NCBI RefSeq assembly: GCF_001485215.1 | Contig: NZ_BBWW01000001.1 | Span: forward strand, 1,240,001 to 1,304,000 | Source of the DNA: Leptolyngbya sp. NIES-2104 | Lineage (GTDB): Bacteria; Cyanobacteriota; Cyanobacteriia; Leptolyngbyales; Leptolyngbyaceae | DNA: 64,000 bases | Reading direction: 5' to 3' | In this document: positions 41,751 through 48,680 of the stretch, one piece after another | Layout: the number at the start of each line of letters is the position of its first letter | Numbering within the stretch: position 1 is the first letter of the stretch | The notes under the pieces: generated by a model | What the model was told of the DNA's origin: nothing | The model's database searches: none | What the model saw: only the letters and a program-made list of their open reading frames with translations | Translations under genes and position numbers: made by a program

Positions 41751-42212
41751 ATGATTGCTCGTTCACCGATCTTGCTGTCGTTTGGAATATTCGGATTGCT
41801 CAACTCGTCAGATTCGATGCTGAGTACGTCAATTGCAGTGAGTTTGGGAGCGATTCCCGGTGCATTAAGCCGCTACTATCTAACGGTTCTATTAAGTCGA
41901 TGGCTCGGAGACGATTTTCCCTATGGAACATTTTCTATCAATCTCACTGGGTCACTGTTGATGGGCTTCTTTGCGACTCTTGCGATCGAGCACTTTATCA
42001 CGTCGCTAGAATTGCAGCTCCTGATCACGACAGGATTTCTCGGTTCCTACACTACGTTTTCGACCTATGCACTTGATACTTCAGTGTTGCTCCGAGGACG
42101 TAATCGCGCCAAAGCTTTGTTCTACTGGCTAGGTAGTTCGATCTTGGGTGGCATTTGTCTTGGAATCGGGGTTGCATTTGCCAAATTGCTTTTATGGAGA
42201 ACCGTATCGTGA
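41751..42212 (+). CDS. crcB: CrcB/Fluc fluoride channel subunit 1
   Basis: 153 residues, AGGAG before ATG. Four membrane helices; conserved PGALSRYYL, the Fluc motif GTFSINLTGSLLMGFF with channel Asn, and GFLGSYTTFSTYALD with the paired Phe/Thr lining residues. Fluc channels export fluoride as dual-topology dimers. An N-terminal extra 20 residues (MIARSPILLSFGIF...) are longer than usual. The paralogue follows with a 19-bp overlap, so both subunits are cotranslated, as in the heterodimeric arrangement. Confidence 0.9.
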   Translation: MIARSPILLSFGIFGLLNSSDSMLSTSIAVSLGAIPGALSRYYLTVLLSRWLGDDFPYGTFSINLTGSLLMGFFATLAIEHFITSLELQLLITTGFLGSYTTFSTYALDTSVLLRGRNRAKALFYWLGSSILGGICLGIGVAFAKLLLWRTVS

Positions 42213-42637
42213 ATGGGTCGCAAAAAGGCGGGTCAATCTTACGTTCCCCGAATGGCAATATTAGAGTGCCGATCGCCATTAGCTTCGGTGCGGTTCCAGG
42301 AGCCTTGAGCCGTTACTTTCTTTCGGCGATCGTGAATCACTGGCTTGGAACTGCTTTTCCGTTCGCCACGTTTTTCATCAATCTTTCTGGTGCATTGATC
42401 ATGGGCTTTTTCACCAGCCTTGCTGTCGATCGAAGGATTACTTCTCCAGAGGTGCGGTTGATTGTTGCAGTCGGGTTTCTAGGATCATACACAACGTTTT
42501 CTACTTACACTTTGGATCTTGGAAGACTACTAGAAACCGGGAATTGGCAGTTGATTGCTTTGTATTGGACAGGGAGTACGGTGCTGGGCTTATTGTGTTT
42601 GGAACTTGGGAGCTATGTTGCGCAGAGGTTGCCATGA
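42194..42637 (+). CDS. crcB: CrcB/Fluc fluoride channel subunit 2
   Basis: 147 residues from ATG 42194. Similar to the preceding protein throughout: PGALSRYFLSAIV, ATFFINLSGALIMGFFTS and GFLGSYTTFSTYTLDLG, so the pair arose by duplication and may form a heterodimer of opposite orientation. A 20-residue N-terminal extension precedes the first helix. No fluoride riboswitch was recognised upstream of the pair. Confidence 0.9.
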   Translation: MENRIVNGSQKGGSILRSPNGNIRVPIAISFGAVPGALSRYFLSAIVNHWLGTAFPFATFFINLSGALIMGFFTSLAVDRRITSPEVRLIVAVGFLGSYTTFSTYTLDLGRLLETGNWQLIALYWTGSTVLGLLCLELGSYVAQRLP

Positions 42638-43944: not shown

Positions 43945-44715
43945 TTAGACGGCAACTGCTTCTTGCCCATGCTTGCGTAACAGTTCCATCAGTTCATCAC
44001 GATAGTCGTGAAACAGAGAATTTCGCTTTACTGAAGTCGCCCGTTCCGGTAGGTCAATCTGCATAATTTTGCGAACCGTGCCCGGACGCGCTCCTAAAGC
44101 GAAGATGCGATTCGAGAGAAACACCGCTTCTTCAACATCGTGCGTAATCATGAAAATGGTAATGCCAGTGCGCCGCCACAAATCGATCATGAAGTCGTGC
44201 ATCGATTCTTTCGTATGAATATCGAGAGCGCCAAAGGGTTCATCCATCAGCAGCATCTTCGGTTCTGACGCGAGAGCGCGGGCGATCGCGACTCGTTGTT
44301 TCATCCCGCCAGATAGCTCTTTTGGTAAAGCTTTGCCGAACTTTGAGAGTCCCACAATGTTCAGATAGTAGCTTGCCTGTTCGCGGCGTTCCTTTTTCGG
44401 GACACCTTGCAGTTTTAGCCCAAACTCGGTATTTTCCTGAACACTCATCCACGGGTACAGCGTGTAATGTTGAAACACCATTCCGCGATCGGGACCCGGA
44501 CCTGTGATGCGTCTGCCTTCGATCCGAACTTCTCCGGTCGTCGGCATATCCAGTCCAGCAATTTGACGCAGCAGCGTTGATTTTCCTGAGCCAGATGCAC
44601 CCACCGCACAAACAAATTCACCTTGCTCGATATCCATGTCGATATCCTTCAGAACGACGAGTGTTCCGTTTTTGGTCTGAAACTGCTTGTTGAGATTGCT
44701 AATTTGCAAAAACAT
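43945..44715 (-). CDS. ABC transporter ATP-binding protein (guanidine importer)
   Basis: 256 residues. Walker A GASGSGKST, signature LSGGMKQRV, Walker B LLMDEPFGALD and the H-loop ITHDVEEA place it with NitT/TauT (nitrate/sulfonate-type) importers. GGAGAA precedes ATG 44715. Third gene of the minus-strand operon after the binding protein and permease (gap 24 bp). The guanidine-I riboswitch at its head says the substrate is guanidine; that is inferred from the switch, not the protein. It powers import at the plasma membrane. Confidence 0.88.
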   Translation of the reverse strand: MFLQISNLNKQFQTKNGTLVVLKDIDMDIEQGEFVCAVGASGSGKSTLLRQIAGLDMPTTGEVRIEGRRITGPGPDRGMVFQHYTLYPWMSVQENTEFGLKLQGVPKKERREQASYYLNIVGLSKFGKALPKELSGGMKQRVAIARALASEPKMLLMDEPFGALDIHTKESMHDFMIDLWRRTGITIFMITHDVEEAVFLSNRIFALGARPGTVRKIMQIDLPERATSVKRNSLFHDYRDELMELLRKHGQEAVAV

Positions 44716-44739: not shown

Positions 44740-45591
44740 TTATCGTTTCTGACTTGCCCAACTACAAGTGACGCGCAATAGATACTGAAACAGTAGGTCG
44801 AATGCCAAACCAATCACACCGATGACAATCAGACCGACAAAAATTTCATCGGTTCTAAGAAAGCGACCTGCAACACTGATACGCCGTCCCAATCCTTCGG
44901 TTGCAGCAATCAATTCTGAAACAATCACAAGCTGCCAAGCGGCGGCTAAATTGATTCGACAAGCATCAAGAATTCCTGGAAGAACGTGTGGCAAAATTAC
45001 CTGTGTGAGCGCCTCGCGACGATTGCCACCCAGCATATAAGTTGCTTCGATCAAATCCTTGGGCACAAACTTCACAGTGTCCATCACCATCAGCGAATTG
45101 AAGAAAAACACCCCGATAAAAATCAGCGTAATTTTCGGTGCTTCATCGATGCCCTGATACAGAATTAACAGCGGAATGAATGCTGGTGCAGGCATATACC
45201 GCATCAATCCAAACAATGGCTCTAAGAGCGCCCGAATGCTGGGAAAGCTTCCCATCAGCACCCCGATCGGAATCGATAGCAGTGCAGCCAGCAAGAACCC
45301 AACGCCAACGCGCCACAAACTTGCAACCGTATCTTTTAACAGTTCGCGAGTACTCCACAATCGCCCGAATGCTTCTAGCACATTTGCAGGGGAAGGTAAG
45401 AACTTCGGATCAATGTTGCCAAACGTTGTCACTGCCCACCAAAGTATCAGGGGCAGAACGATCGATAACACCGTCAAGGTCGTATACAGCGATCGAGGAA
45501 TATCTTCCGCTAAGCGCCAAAACACAGTAGGTTTCATGGTTTTGGGCTTGATCAGCGATTGAATCGATCGAGGTGAGGAATTTTGCATCAT
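44740..45591 (-). CDS. ABC transporter permease (guanidine importer)
   Basis: 283 residues with about six membrane helices. The EAA loop (DLIEATYMLGGNRREALTQVILPHVLPG) contacts the ATPase; the layout is that of SsuC/NrtB/TauC permeases. N-terminal leader MMQNSSPRSIQSLIKPK is charged and cytosolic. Four bases separate it from the binding-protein gene, so the two are tightly coupled. Same riboswitch as the operon. Confidence 0.88.
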   Translation of the reverse strand: MMQNSSPRSIQSLIKPKTMKPTVFWRLAEDIPRSLYTTLTVLSIVLPLILWWAVTTFGNIDPKFLPSPANVLEAFGRLWSTRELLKDTVASLWRVGVGFLLAALLSIPIGVLMGSFPSIRALLEPLFGLMRYMPAPAFIPLLILYQGIDEAPKITLIFIGVFFFNSLMVMDTVKFVPKDLIEATYMLGGNRREALTQVILPHVLPGILDACRINLAAAWQLVIVSELIAATEGLGRRISVAGRFLRTDEIFVGLIVIGVIGLAFDLLFQYLLRVTCSWASQKR

Positions 45592-45595
45592 AGGA

Positions 45596-46657
45596 TCAGG
45601 CAGCTTTGGCGAGTTTTTTGTTCTGAGCGTGGGCTTTCACGAAGCGATCGTCGAACAATAAGCGGGTATTCGGCTTGGTTTTCGCCAGTCCAACATCCAT
45701 TAGAAACTGGCTCATTTCGTCAGCGGCATACAGCAGTGATGTCATATCACTTCCTGGCTGAAAGGCTTTGAGGTTTTCTTCGAGCGTGAAGAGTCGGGTG
45801 CCATCCGCGTATTGTTTGTATTCCTCGATCGACACGCCTGCTCGTCTTGCCATAATTTCGTAAGCTTGCGCCTGATTCGTTTTGATAAAATCGAGCGTGG
45901 CAAACCAAGCATCGATCAAGGCTTGAACTTGCTCTGGCTTTTCGTACAGGAACTTGCGATTTACCACTAAGTGATCTGAAATCGCACCCGGAAACTCTTT
46001 AGAGCTAAAGAGTTCTTTACTGTTTGGTCGTTTAAGTGCTTGAGTGGTAAAGGGTGCAAACACCGCGCACGCATCAACTTGACCTGCCACAAACGCGGCG
46101 GCAGCTCTCCCAGTTTCTAGTGGCACAAATTGAATATCTTGAGGCGAAAGTCCTGCCTTTCTCATGCCTAACAACAATAGAAAATGATCAACGGTTCCTT
46201 CTTCGGCTGCAACTTTTTTGCCTTTGAGATCTGCGATCGTATTGATGCCTTCACGCACAATAATCTTGTCATTTCCGGTAGAGTTATCATTGACCAAGAC
46301 AATAACTTGATCTGCACCACCAGAGATCGAATTGACTGTATCTCCGAGCGTTTGGCTATTGGCATCAATTTGTCCTGCGGTCAGTGTATTAATCGATTCC
46401 AAATATCCGTCAAACCAGCGCAGTTCAGCATTGGCTGATTTCGTTTTGAAAATGCCTCGCTCTTGAGCAATCTGCCAGGGAAACCAACCGGGCCAAGCAC
46501 TAAAACCCAGTCGAACAGTATCCGCAGTGGTCGCGGCAGAAGCGGCTTCGGTTTGAGTTGTGGTCTGAATATAAACAGCGGGATTTGTACAGCCAACTAC
46601 CAGAAAAGCAGCGGCTAGAAACAGCAGGCAGGACGTTACGATCGTTTTCGCTTTCAT
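45596..46657 (-). CDS. ABC transporter substrate-binding lipoprotein (guanidine importer)
   Basis: 353 residues. Lipoprotein signal: MKAKTIVTSCLLFLAAAFLVVGC with lipidated C23. The mature protein has the type II binding-protein fold of NMT1/TauA/SsuA (RLGFSAWPGWFPWQIAQERG..., LKGKKVAAEEGTVDHFLLL..., VDACAVFAPF). It captures the substrate outside the membrane. As the first gene after the minus-strand guanidine-I riboswitch and NtcA promoter it is the most regulated part. Substrate by context: guanidine. Confidence 0.88.
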   Translation of the reverse strand: MKAKTIVTSCLLFLAAAFLVVGCTNPAVYIQTTTQTEAASAATTADTVRLGFSAWPGWFPWQIAQERGIFKTKSANAELRWFDGYLESINTLTAGQIDANSQTLGDTVNSISGGADQVIVLVNDNSTGNDKIIVREGINTIADLKGKKVAAEEGTVDHFLLLLGMRKAGLSPQDIQFVPLETGRAAAAFVAGQVDACAVFAPFTTQALKRPNSKELFSSKEFPGAISDHLVVNRKFLYEKPEQVQALIDAWFATLDFIKTNQAQAYEIMARRAGVSIEEYKQYADGTRLFTLEENLKAFQPGSDMTSLLYAADEMSQFLMDVGLAKTKPNTRLLFDDRFVKAHAQNKKLAKAA

Positions 46658-46730: not shown

Positions 46731-46790
46731 AAAAACCCAGGTGAAACCTGTCAGTCTTTTGTATCGACTGAAAGTTTCTCCCGGGCTTTT
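46731..46790 (-). terminator. Riboswitch terminator (importer arm)
   Basis: On the minus strand the 3' part of the aptamer (AAAAGCCCGGGAGAAAC) can pair with GTTTCACCTGGGTTTTT, enclosing an inner TCAGTC/GACTGA stem, and ends in T5. It shares bases with the aptamer's conserved 3' strand, so guanidine binding should prevent it. Confidence 0.85.
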
Positions 46791-46863
46791 CTCCCGCCGT
46801 GTAGCTAACATTCGGGTTAGCTTGCTTCTCTCGGACCAGACGTTCAAAGAACCGGAACCCTAG
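46777..46863 (-). ncRNA. Guanidine-I (ykkC) riboswitch, importer arm
   Basis: On the minus strand: CTAGGGTTCCGG, then CTGGTCCGAGAGAAGC, then ACACGGCGGG followed by GCCCGGGAGA, in the order and spacing of the guanidine-I aptamer. Variable stem GCTAAC...GTTAGC lies between. It is followed by a terminator that overlaps its 3' strand. It sits about 120 bp before the binding-protein start. Confidence 0.95.
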
Positions 46864-46930
46864 AAGCAAATTAAGTTTTGAAACCGCGATCGCACTTGAA
46901 TTCTGTCGCGCTAAGCGGCTTGATTCGATT

Positions 46931-46972
46931 ACAGTAGCAAGCGATTTTCAACGGGTTTGTATCGATTACTAC
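46931..46972 (-). promoter_or_regulatory. NtcA-activated-type promoter of the importer operon
   Basis: On the minus strand GTAGTAATCGATAC (46972-46959) fits GTA-N8-TAC exactly, and after 22 bp comes TACTGT (46936-46931), which fits the -10 form TAN3T. This is the class II NtcA layout known from cyanobacterial nitrogen genes. Transcription would start about 60 bp before the riboswitch. Confidence 0.75.
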
Positions 46973-47034
46973 TTTGTAGAGAATTGTTAGTTTGTAGCCA
47001 TATTAATGCGACTCAAGAAAATATTCTCGATCGC

Positions 47035-47062
47035 TTGACTTCCCGATTTAGAGTGCTAGACT
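47035..47062 (+). promoter_or_regulatory. Candidate sigma-70 promoter of the carboxylase operon
   Basis: TTGACT (47035-47040), 16 bp, TAGACT (47057-47062), about 58 bp before the riboswitch. The NtcA-like site lies 63 bp upstream of the -35 and could affect both arms. Confidence 0.5.
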
Positions 47063-47119
47063 AACGAGGAGTTAAGCAGATTAACGATTAAGAATTGCAA
47101 GCTAAATAGGGGTAAGCTT

Positions 47120-47210
47120 CTAGGGTTCCGATTCGATCCGAATGACTGGACCGAGAGAAGCAGCCGGATCTAAAGATTCGGTCACACGGCGGGATAAAAG
47201 CCCGGGAGAG
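47120..47210 (+). ncRNA. Guanidine-I (ykkC) riboswitch, carboxylase arm
   Basis: CTAGGGTTCCG, then ACTGGACCGAGAGAAGC, then ACACGGCGGGATAAAAG and CCCGGGAGAG follow the guanidine-I consensus; the variable stem between is CCGGATC/GATTCGG-like. It heads the two DUF1989 genes and the carboxylase. It is one of two copies in the 0.6-kb divergent region. Confidence 0.95.
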
Positions 47211-47254
47211 CCATACAGTCGTCTGTCGTGGTATCTCCTGGGCTTCGCTGTTTT
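47198..47254 (+). terminator. Riboswitch terminator (carboxylase arm)
   Basis: AAGCCCGGGAGAGCCATA pairs with TGGTATCTCCTGGGCTT, followed by GCTGTTTT. The left side is the conserved 3' part of the aptamer, so terminator and ligand-bound aptamer exclude each other. Confidence 0.75.
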
Positions 47255-47286
47255 GAGTCGGAACCGTTCAGATTCTGGAGAATGCT

Positions 47287-48018
47287 ATGGTGCAAACTGT
47301 TTCTACACCGATGACGACGATCGATCCAAGCCTGATTTTGCTCGATGAAAAGCTACCCGGTGGCGCGTACTGGCATTCGGTGATTCAGCGAGGCAACACG
47401 CTGCGGATCACTGATTTAGAAGGATCTCAGGGAGTCTCGATCGTGTGCTACAACGCGGATAATGCGATCGAGCGATTAAACGTGGCAGATACCTCGAAGA
47501 TTCAGTTCAATGCGTTTCTACAAAAAGGAAAGCTGCTTTATTCAGACATGGGACGAGTGTTGTTTTCCATCACCGAAGACACATCTGGCTATCATGACTT
47601 GATTTGTGGCTGTAGCAATGCAGCAAGCAACACCGCAAAGTATGGAGAAGGTGACTTTAACAATTCGCGCAATAACTTTCTGAAAGCACTCGGCAAACGA
47701 GGGTTGACCCGCAAAGATTTGATGCCGAACGTGAATTTGTTCAGTCGTGTTGCGATCGCTCCGAATGGTGATTTGAAGTACGTTGAAGGAGTCGAGCAGC
47801 CTGGAAGCTTTGTCGATTTGCGGGCAGAAATGAATGTATTAGTGATCGTGTCGAACTGTCCACATGTCTTGTATCCGAGCAATGAGTACAAGCCAAAATC
47901 AATTCAATTAACCGTTTGGAAGTCTCCGGCTCCGAGCGAGGATGATTTGTGTCGAACCTCTTGCCCAGAAGCGATTCGCGCTTTTCAGAACACTGATGCT
48001 TTGTTTGCTCAAGTCTAG
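47287..48018 (+). CDS. DUF1989 protein UAAP1 (carboxyguanidine deiminase subunit)
   Basis: 243 residues with TGGAG before ATG. DUF1989 (urea-carboxylase-associated) signatures: RGNTLRITDLEGSQGVSIVCYNA, GCSNAASNTAKYGEG with the metal-binding Cys, DLRAEMNVLVIVSNCPH. It and the next protein are paralogues; together they are known as the CgdAB-type deiminase that hydrolyses carboxyguanidine to allophanate and ammonia. First gene after the riboswitch. Confidence 0.9.
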   Translation: MVQTVSTPMTTIDPSLILLDEKLPGGAYWHSVIQRGNTLRITDLEGSQGVSIVCYNADNAIERLNVADTSKIQFNAFLQKGKLLYSDMGRVLFSITEDTSGYHDLICGCSNAASNTAKYGEGDFNNSRNNFLKALGKRGLTRKDLMPNVNLFSRVAIAPNGDLKYVEGVEQPGSFVDLRAEMNVLVIVSNCPHVLYPSNEYKPKSIQLTVWKSPAPSEDDLCRTSCPEAIRAFQNTDALFAQV

Positions 48019-48038: not shown

Positions 48039-48680
48039 ATGGTTGCGACACTTCAAACAAAACTTGATCCGGCTTCTGCAATTTATGATGAGGTTGTTCC
48101 TGCCCGTCAGCCTTGGTCGCGGATTCTGAAAAAAGGTCAAACGCTGCGGATTATTGATCTGATGGGCAATCAGGCAGTAGATACCCTGTTTTACAATGCT
48201 CATGATTCATCTGAGCGGTATAGCGCTCCTGATACGGTGGTTCGTCAAGGCAACATTTTTATCACCACGGGGACGCAGTTGATCTCGAACGAAGGAAACG
48301 TGATGGCGACGATTACCGATGATGAGTGTGGCAAGCACGACACGATCGGGGGAGCTTGCAGTATGGAAAGTAACTCGGTGCGGTACGGGTTACATAAAAA
48401 GCATCTTCATGCTTGTGTTGAGAACTATTTGCTGGAACTGAGCAAGTATGAAATGAACAAGCGCGATTTAGTTAGCAACATCAATTTCTACATGAACGTT
48501 CCGGTGAACGAGGACGGACGCTTAGAGATTGTAGATGGCATTTCTGAAGCGGGCAAGATTGTAGAACTGCGGGCAGAAATGGATTTGATGGTGTTGATTT
48601 CTAACTGTCCTCAAGTTAACAATCCTTGTAATGCTTATAATCCGACTCCGATTCGGTTGATCATTTGGGATGCAGCATAG
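48039..48680 (+). CDS. DUF1989 protein UAAP2 (carboxyguanidine deiminase subunit)
   Basis: 213 residues. Shares with the upstream paralogue RILKKGQTLRIIDLMGNQAVDTLFYNA, GACSMESNSVRYG and ELRAEMDLMVLISNCPQ; the Cys of GACSMESN is a likely metal ligand. It begins 20 bp after the previous stop (GGGAGA upstream) and forms the heteromeric deiminase with it. Known from guanidine-degradation operons under ykkC control. Confidence 0.9.
   Translation: MVATLQTKLDPASAIYDEVVPARQPWSRILKKGQTLRIIDLMGNQAVDTLFYNAHDSSERYSAPDTVVRQGNIFITTGTQLISNEGNVMATITDDECGKHDTIGGACSMESNSVRYGLHKKHLHACVENYLLELSKYEMNKRDLVSNINFYMNVPVNEDGRLEIVDGISEAGKIVELRAEMDLMVLISNCPQVNNPCNAYNPTPIRLIIWDAA

Follow-up and report, generated by a model that had tools for sequence, protein, structure and literature searches.

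The window, i.e., the whole stretch of 64,000 nucleotides that was analysed, carries two guanidine-I (ykkC) riboswitches in a single intergenic region, one reading into the genes of an ABC importer and the other into those of two carboxyguanidine deiminase subunits and a biotin-dependent guanidine carboxylase (Table 1). A search of the window with cmscan against Rfam returned two matches above the gathering score, both to the guanidine-I family RF00442; each exceeds the gathering score of that family (63 bits) and spans the full length of the model (positions 1-107), and the scores and E-values rule out a chance match as their source. No further RF00442 copies beyond these two were found in the organism's own genome, which is 99.96% complete. 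The central claim of the first-pass annotation, two guanidine-I riboswitches with terminator platforms, is thereby upheld, each full-length aptamer being accompanied by a terminator fold. Its description of the pair as back to back is to be read as a divergent arrangement, with 234 bp between the 5' ends of the aptamers. The start given for the interval (46777) was in turn misplaced, as it omits the importer terminator (46731-46788).

Table 1. Features of the guanidine locus. Coordinates are positions within the 64,000-nt window and strands are as marked, except for the last row, which gives loci outside it.
Feature	Position	Strand	Evidence
ABC importer ATPase	43945..44715	-	PF00005; sulfonate/nitrate/taurine importer type
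ABC importer permease	44740..45591	-	PF00528; best NCBIfam match TauC-type, below cut-off
Substrate-binding protein, ABC importer (SsuA/NMT1 family)	45596..46657	-	TIGR01728, 227 bits, above cut-off; PF13379/PF09084
Terminator, importer arm	46731..46788	-	Fold -36.7 kcal/mol, z -7.1; 5' arm AAGCCCGGGAGA overlaps aptamer 3' end
Guanidine-I (ykkC) aptamer, importer arm	46776..46874	-	RF00442, 89.9 bits, E 7.8e-15, model 1-107
Predicted NtcA-type promoter, importer arm	46931..46972	-	GTAGTAATCGATAC-N22-TACTGT; pattern search
Candidate sigma-70-like promoter, carboxylase arm	47035..47062	+	TTGACT-16-TAGACT, extended -10; consensus scan
Guanidine-I (ykkC) aptamer, carboxylase arm	47109..47210	+	RF00442, 82.1 bits, E 4.3e-13, model 1-107
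Terminator, carboxylase arm	47199..47254	+	Fold of 47190-47258, -35.9 kcal/mol, z -6.1; 5' arm AGCCCGGGAGA overlaps aptamer 3' end; interrupted U-tract CUUCGCUGUUUU
CgdA-type carboxyguanidine deiminase subunit (UAAP1, DUF1989)	47287..48018	+	TIGR03425, 305.6 bits, above cut-off; PF09347
CgdB-type carboxyguanidine deiminase subunit (UAAP2, DUF1989)	48039..48680	+	TIGR03424, 348.7 bits, above cut-off; PF09347
Biotin-dependent guanidine carboxylase (annotated urea carboxylase), 1210 residues	48743..52375	+	TIGR02712, 1906.8 bits; two signature Asp
Loci for the AtzE/AtzG/AH_C observation	L037:5286-7220 (own genome C1:3491285-3493219); L085:2439-2876; G008:C198:1648-2007		

When compared with the guanidine-I core motifs (CUAGGGUUCCG, CUGGUCCGAGAG and ACACGG.GGGA.AAAAGCCCGGGAGA), the importer-arm aptamer on the minus strand matches all three exactly, and the full conserved core that had been ascribed to both copies is indeed present in this one. 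It is not complete in the plus-strand aptamer, where CUGGUCC is changed to CUGGACC (CUGGACCGAGAG, A for U). This single core substitution is rare, 118 of 121 cyanobacterial guanidine-I aptamers having U there, and the Rfam consensus leaves the position unpaired. The relative G019 likewise has a change in this core motif, but a common one (22/121). Overall, the aptamers and riboswitch parts are of a known kind and form an ordinary, well-supported pair.

On the importer arm, guanidine is the putative substrate of the transporter, judging from context, i.e., from the SsuA/NMT1 family membership of its binding protein together with the riboswitch control. On the same side of the window, two adjoining small membrane-protein frames of 153 and 160 aa (41751-42637) look by eye like a CrcB/Fluc-type fluoride channel pair. 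On the carboxylase arm, the two DUF1989 subunits are of the UAAP1 and UAAP2 types, corresponding to CgdA and CgdB. Guanidine carboxylases are distinguished from urea carboxylases by an Asp at K. lactis position 1584 and by Asp, not Asn, at position 1330 (PMC11410670). In an alignment to the K. lactis enzyme (3va7), the carboxylase of the window has Asp708 in the place of Asn1330 (IGTIDFTGD versus LGAINFTGD) and retains the second signature Asp (K. lactis 1584), which rules out a urea carboxylase; both signature aspartates being present, the plus arm can be assigned to the guanidine carboxylase route. The earlier proposal of separate guanidine-I switches for uptake and breakdown is supported by gene content, by these residues and by the recurrence of the two-arm design described below.

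At the end of the pathway, a full-length allophanate hydrolase was not found in the own genome, and among the 42 genomes of the order only two have an allophanate hydrolase match above the family cut-off, the carboxylase passing its cut-off in 21. Elsewhere in the own genome, AtzE, a possible AtzG (a small open frame) and an allophanate-hydrolase C-terminal domain that stands alone (AH_C) are clustered together, and a urease is also encoded. In G006 (78% identical) and G008, a stand-alone AH_C gene directly follows the carboxylase; AtzE above cut-off was found in neither (G008 is only 69% complete). Allophanate decays to urea unaided (PMC6219798), so urease could complete the route; the allophanate step may possibly be carried out by a split allophanate hydrolase, or allophanate may be lost to urea, with urease acting on it. 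In the g18 genomes (L053, L062, L065, L074, L078 and L086) the switch locus contains cgdA and mostly cgdB without a nearby carboxylase, which lies on another contig; the L078 and L086 loci reach contig ends.

On both arms the expression platform is a terminator in competition with the aptamer. In each aptamer, the conserved 3' strand, (A)AGCCCGGGAGA, pairs with a downstream strand, giving terminators of similar folding energy, and of the last 13 aptamer bases 12 on the importer arm and all 13 on the carboxylase arm pair into the terminator, in agreement with the initial reading that the aptamer 3' strand is also the left side of the hairpin. Sequestration of a ribosome-binding site by one of the switches is disfavoured, the plus-strand hairpin ending at about position 47245 and the start codon lying at 47287. 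The tails of the two terminators differ, as had likewise been noticed in the first-pass annotation, and this difference is a systematic trait in relatives: the importer arm ends in CUGGGUUUUUC, with a U5 tract (T5) at 46731-46735, and the carboxylase arm in CUGGGCUUCGCUGUUUUG, with a U4 run some bases further on. The longest near-stem U-run of the carboxylase arm is 2, the shortest among 23 carboxylase arms. Because this arm combines the rare core substitution with the poorest U-tract of its class, its termination control may be weak or absent.

RF00442 is present in 34 of the 42 genomes of the order, in most of them with two copies. Judging from the gene neighbourhoods, one copy typically precedes importer genes and the second either cgdA-cgdB-carboxylase or a guanidinase, and the divergent importer/cgdA pair itself is found in G000, G019, G020, G006 and G008. 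Eight genomes of a distant second family likewise have a divergent pair of switches, spaced by a few hundred bases, and in all seven of them in which both first genes are readable these are importer and cgdA genes. Since it recurs both within the order and in a second family, the divergent pair is a recurrent module and not a peculiarity of the window.

Other genes are also found behind guanidine-I switches in the sampled genomes. In three (L147:2981-7644, L148 and L117), the switch precedes a type III glutamine-synthetase-like gene, which is unexpected in a guanidine operon; in L147, genes that resemble the importer of the window (substrate-binding protein, permease and ATPase) come next. In nine loci (L103, L107, L116, L119, L128, L131, L137, L138 and L139), the switch lies before genes that by eye resemble sodium/solute symporters, with a GTAN8TAC box upstream in eight of the nine and mostly short U-runs. 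In L115 (3012 onward), the first frame after the switch is insertion-sequence transposase-like, while the box and tail resemble those of the guanidinase copy L113.

The U-tract asymmetry of the window extends to its relatives. The longest near-stem U-run never exceeds 4 in carboxylase arms (n = 23), whereas it ranges from 4 to 7 in the scored ABC importer arms (mean about 5.1, n = 33). The importer U-run is the longer one in 22 of 22 within-genome comparisons of the order, which shared descent reduces to at most about eleven genera as independent cases, and a graded U-tract score gives the same direction in all 22. As the U-tract measure had been picked after the first data set was seen, it was retested in the second family on pairs that were previously unused, except for the importer arm of G214; here again, the importer U-run is longer in all eight genomes. 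Hairpin energies do not differ between importer and carboxylase arms (p 0.13), i.e., stronger hairpins offsetting the weak U-tracts were not seen. A long U-tract is not a rule for importers generally: U-runs are short (mean 3.8) in the Na+/solute symporter-like arms, which belong to another family, and the contrast is therefore limited to ABC importers. In an aptamer tree, which with about 100 columns is a rough guide, most carboxylase arms cluster together and the importer arms are spread over several groups; because of this spread, one event in an ancestor does not fully account for the contrast.

The two arms also appear to differ in promoter type. The canonical NtcA-activated promoter of cyanobacteria has the form GTAN8TAC, 22-23 nt, TAN3T. 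A sequence match to this pattern on the importer arm ends about 57 bp upstream of the aptamer and is kept in G019 and G020, and NtcA is encoded in the own genome, suggesting that NtcA may bind at this box. The GTAN8TAC box is found upstream of cyanobacterial guanidine-I switches in 55 of 121 regions, as compared to a mean of 4.6 and a maximum of 10 in dinucleotide-preserving shuffles, and in 13 cases, versus 0.1 expected, TAN3T follows it at a distance of 22 or 23 bases, 22 being the distinct maximum. The candidate sigma-70-like promoter of the carboxylase arm is likewise kept in G019 and G020; the consensus scan that yielded it found one against 0.6 expected and is weak on its own. The GTAN8TAC box is nearly palindromic and readable on both strands, so that a single box located between divergent arms can act on either, and some relatives have a canonical NtcA promoter before the carboxylase arm; the split in promoter type is therefore a statement on this genus only.

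Guanidine-I riboswitches are ON switches that act through antitermination (PMC12186494). Most probably, the locus is a module for guanidine assimilation whose two divergent arms each have a transcriptional ON riboswitch and are differently tuned. Without guanidine, the nascent leader of each arm would pair its 3' strand AAGCCCGGGAGA downstream and transcription would stop; guanidine, which would be bound at both arms, would keep this strand within the aptamer and allow readthrough, by antitermination, of the importer operon and of the carboxyguanidine operon. With its NtcA-type promoter and full U-tract, the importer arm would be near-silent unless nitrogen is short and guanidine present, and import would thus be gated twice, through nitrogen status at the promoter, as suggested by a site match backed by strong enrichment across the class, and through guanidine at a tight terminator. 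The sigma-70-like promoter and broken U-tract of the carboxylase arm would make it leakier and provide a basal breakdown capacity, a leak predicted from the quality of the U-tract. We give an even chance to the generalization that, in cyanobacteria with split operons, evolution has tuned the arms, importer switches retaining strong terminators and carboxylase switches weak ones, with an NtcA input of nitrogen status, such that import would behave as an AND gate and breakdown would always be partly on.

Against this stands the reading that the two arms carry simple guanidine-I ON switches and that their different terminators mean nothing for regulation, arising from U-tract drift and inherited tails. 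Such a reading, which fits the alike hairpin energies and draws on the grouping of most carboxylase arms in an unsupported tree, where the pattern can in part be put down to shared descent, is nevertheless rather unlikely: carboxylase tails vary in sequence and yet show no U-run above 4 in 23 arms, importer arms occur in several tree groups and all scored ones have U-runs of at least 4, and the second family gives the same sign in eight of eight genomes. The aptamers could also differ in guanidine affinity, the arms then switching at different concentrations, in line with the different sensitivity put forward in the first-pass annotation. They are unlike in stems, in loops and at one rare core position, but the changed U is one that the consensus leaves unpaired, and we regard this as improbable.

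It is very doubtful, moreover, that the carboxylase-arm switch of the own genome is decaying, with its operon near constitutive and only the importer arm still regulated. The replacement of a U so widely kept, together with the shortest U-run of all carboxylase arms, would agree with decay, as would the change in the same motif of G019, though that one is common; however, the remaining core is intact, the aptamer scores 19 bits over the gathering score, the 13 terminator-stem pairs with the switching strand are kept, and a U4 run follows some bases on. Taken as a whole, the sequence supports arms that differ in terminator strength and, in this genus, in promoter type, features that would alter how high basal expression is and how far it depends on nitrogen, not the affinity.

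With the guanidine-I class RF00442 in general, the locus shares the full-length aptamer, the core, the terminator platform formed with the 3' strand, and guanidine carboxylase and importer genes downstream; it differs in having two divergent copies in one intergenic region, a core substitution in the plus-strand copy and asymmetric U-tracts. The guanidine operons of Raoultella, Erwinia and Klebsiella likewise encode an importer, a carboxyguanidine deaminase and a guanidine carboxylase under two riboswitches per locus, with guanidine-I on the importer and deaminase and guanidine-II on the carboxylase and allophanate hydrolase (PMC12186494), whereas in the window both switches are of class I and divergent, and no allophanate hydrolase is linked. 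In Synechocystis sp. PCC 6803 (sll1077-sll1082), guanidine-I control also covers breakdown and a related ABC importer, but with one switch, one operon and a Ni guanidinase (PMC8390497, PMC12186494); here, a carboxylase route is split from the importer and there are two switches. A tandem riboswitch logic gate also combines two nearby aptamers, one of a ykkC-related class; its aptamers lie in tandem and jointly form one gate (PMC5912903), while those of the window each have their own transcript and platform.

The comparative addition beyond these known parts, consisting of the U-tract asymmetry and the NtcA-box enrichment, is modest. The usual description of guanidine switches is that of simple ON switches. 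The NtcA link and the divergent pair may already have been described, the likeliest overlap being with Itzenhauser et al. 2025 (PNAS), which reportedly deals with guanidine assimilation and riboswitches in cyanobacteria. If true, the terminator contrast and the NtcA boxes upstream of nearly half of the sampled switches would mean that a toxic nitrogen source is imported only as needed, with its breakdown held ready, and would be of relevance to users of the guanidine-I switch as an inducible tool in cyanobacteria.
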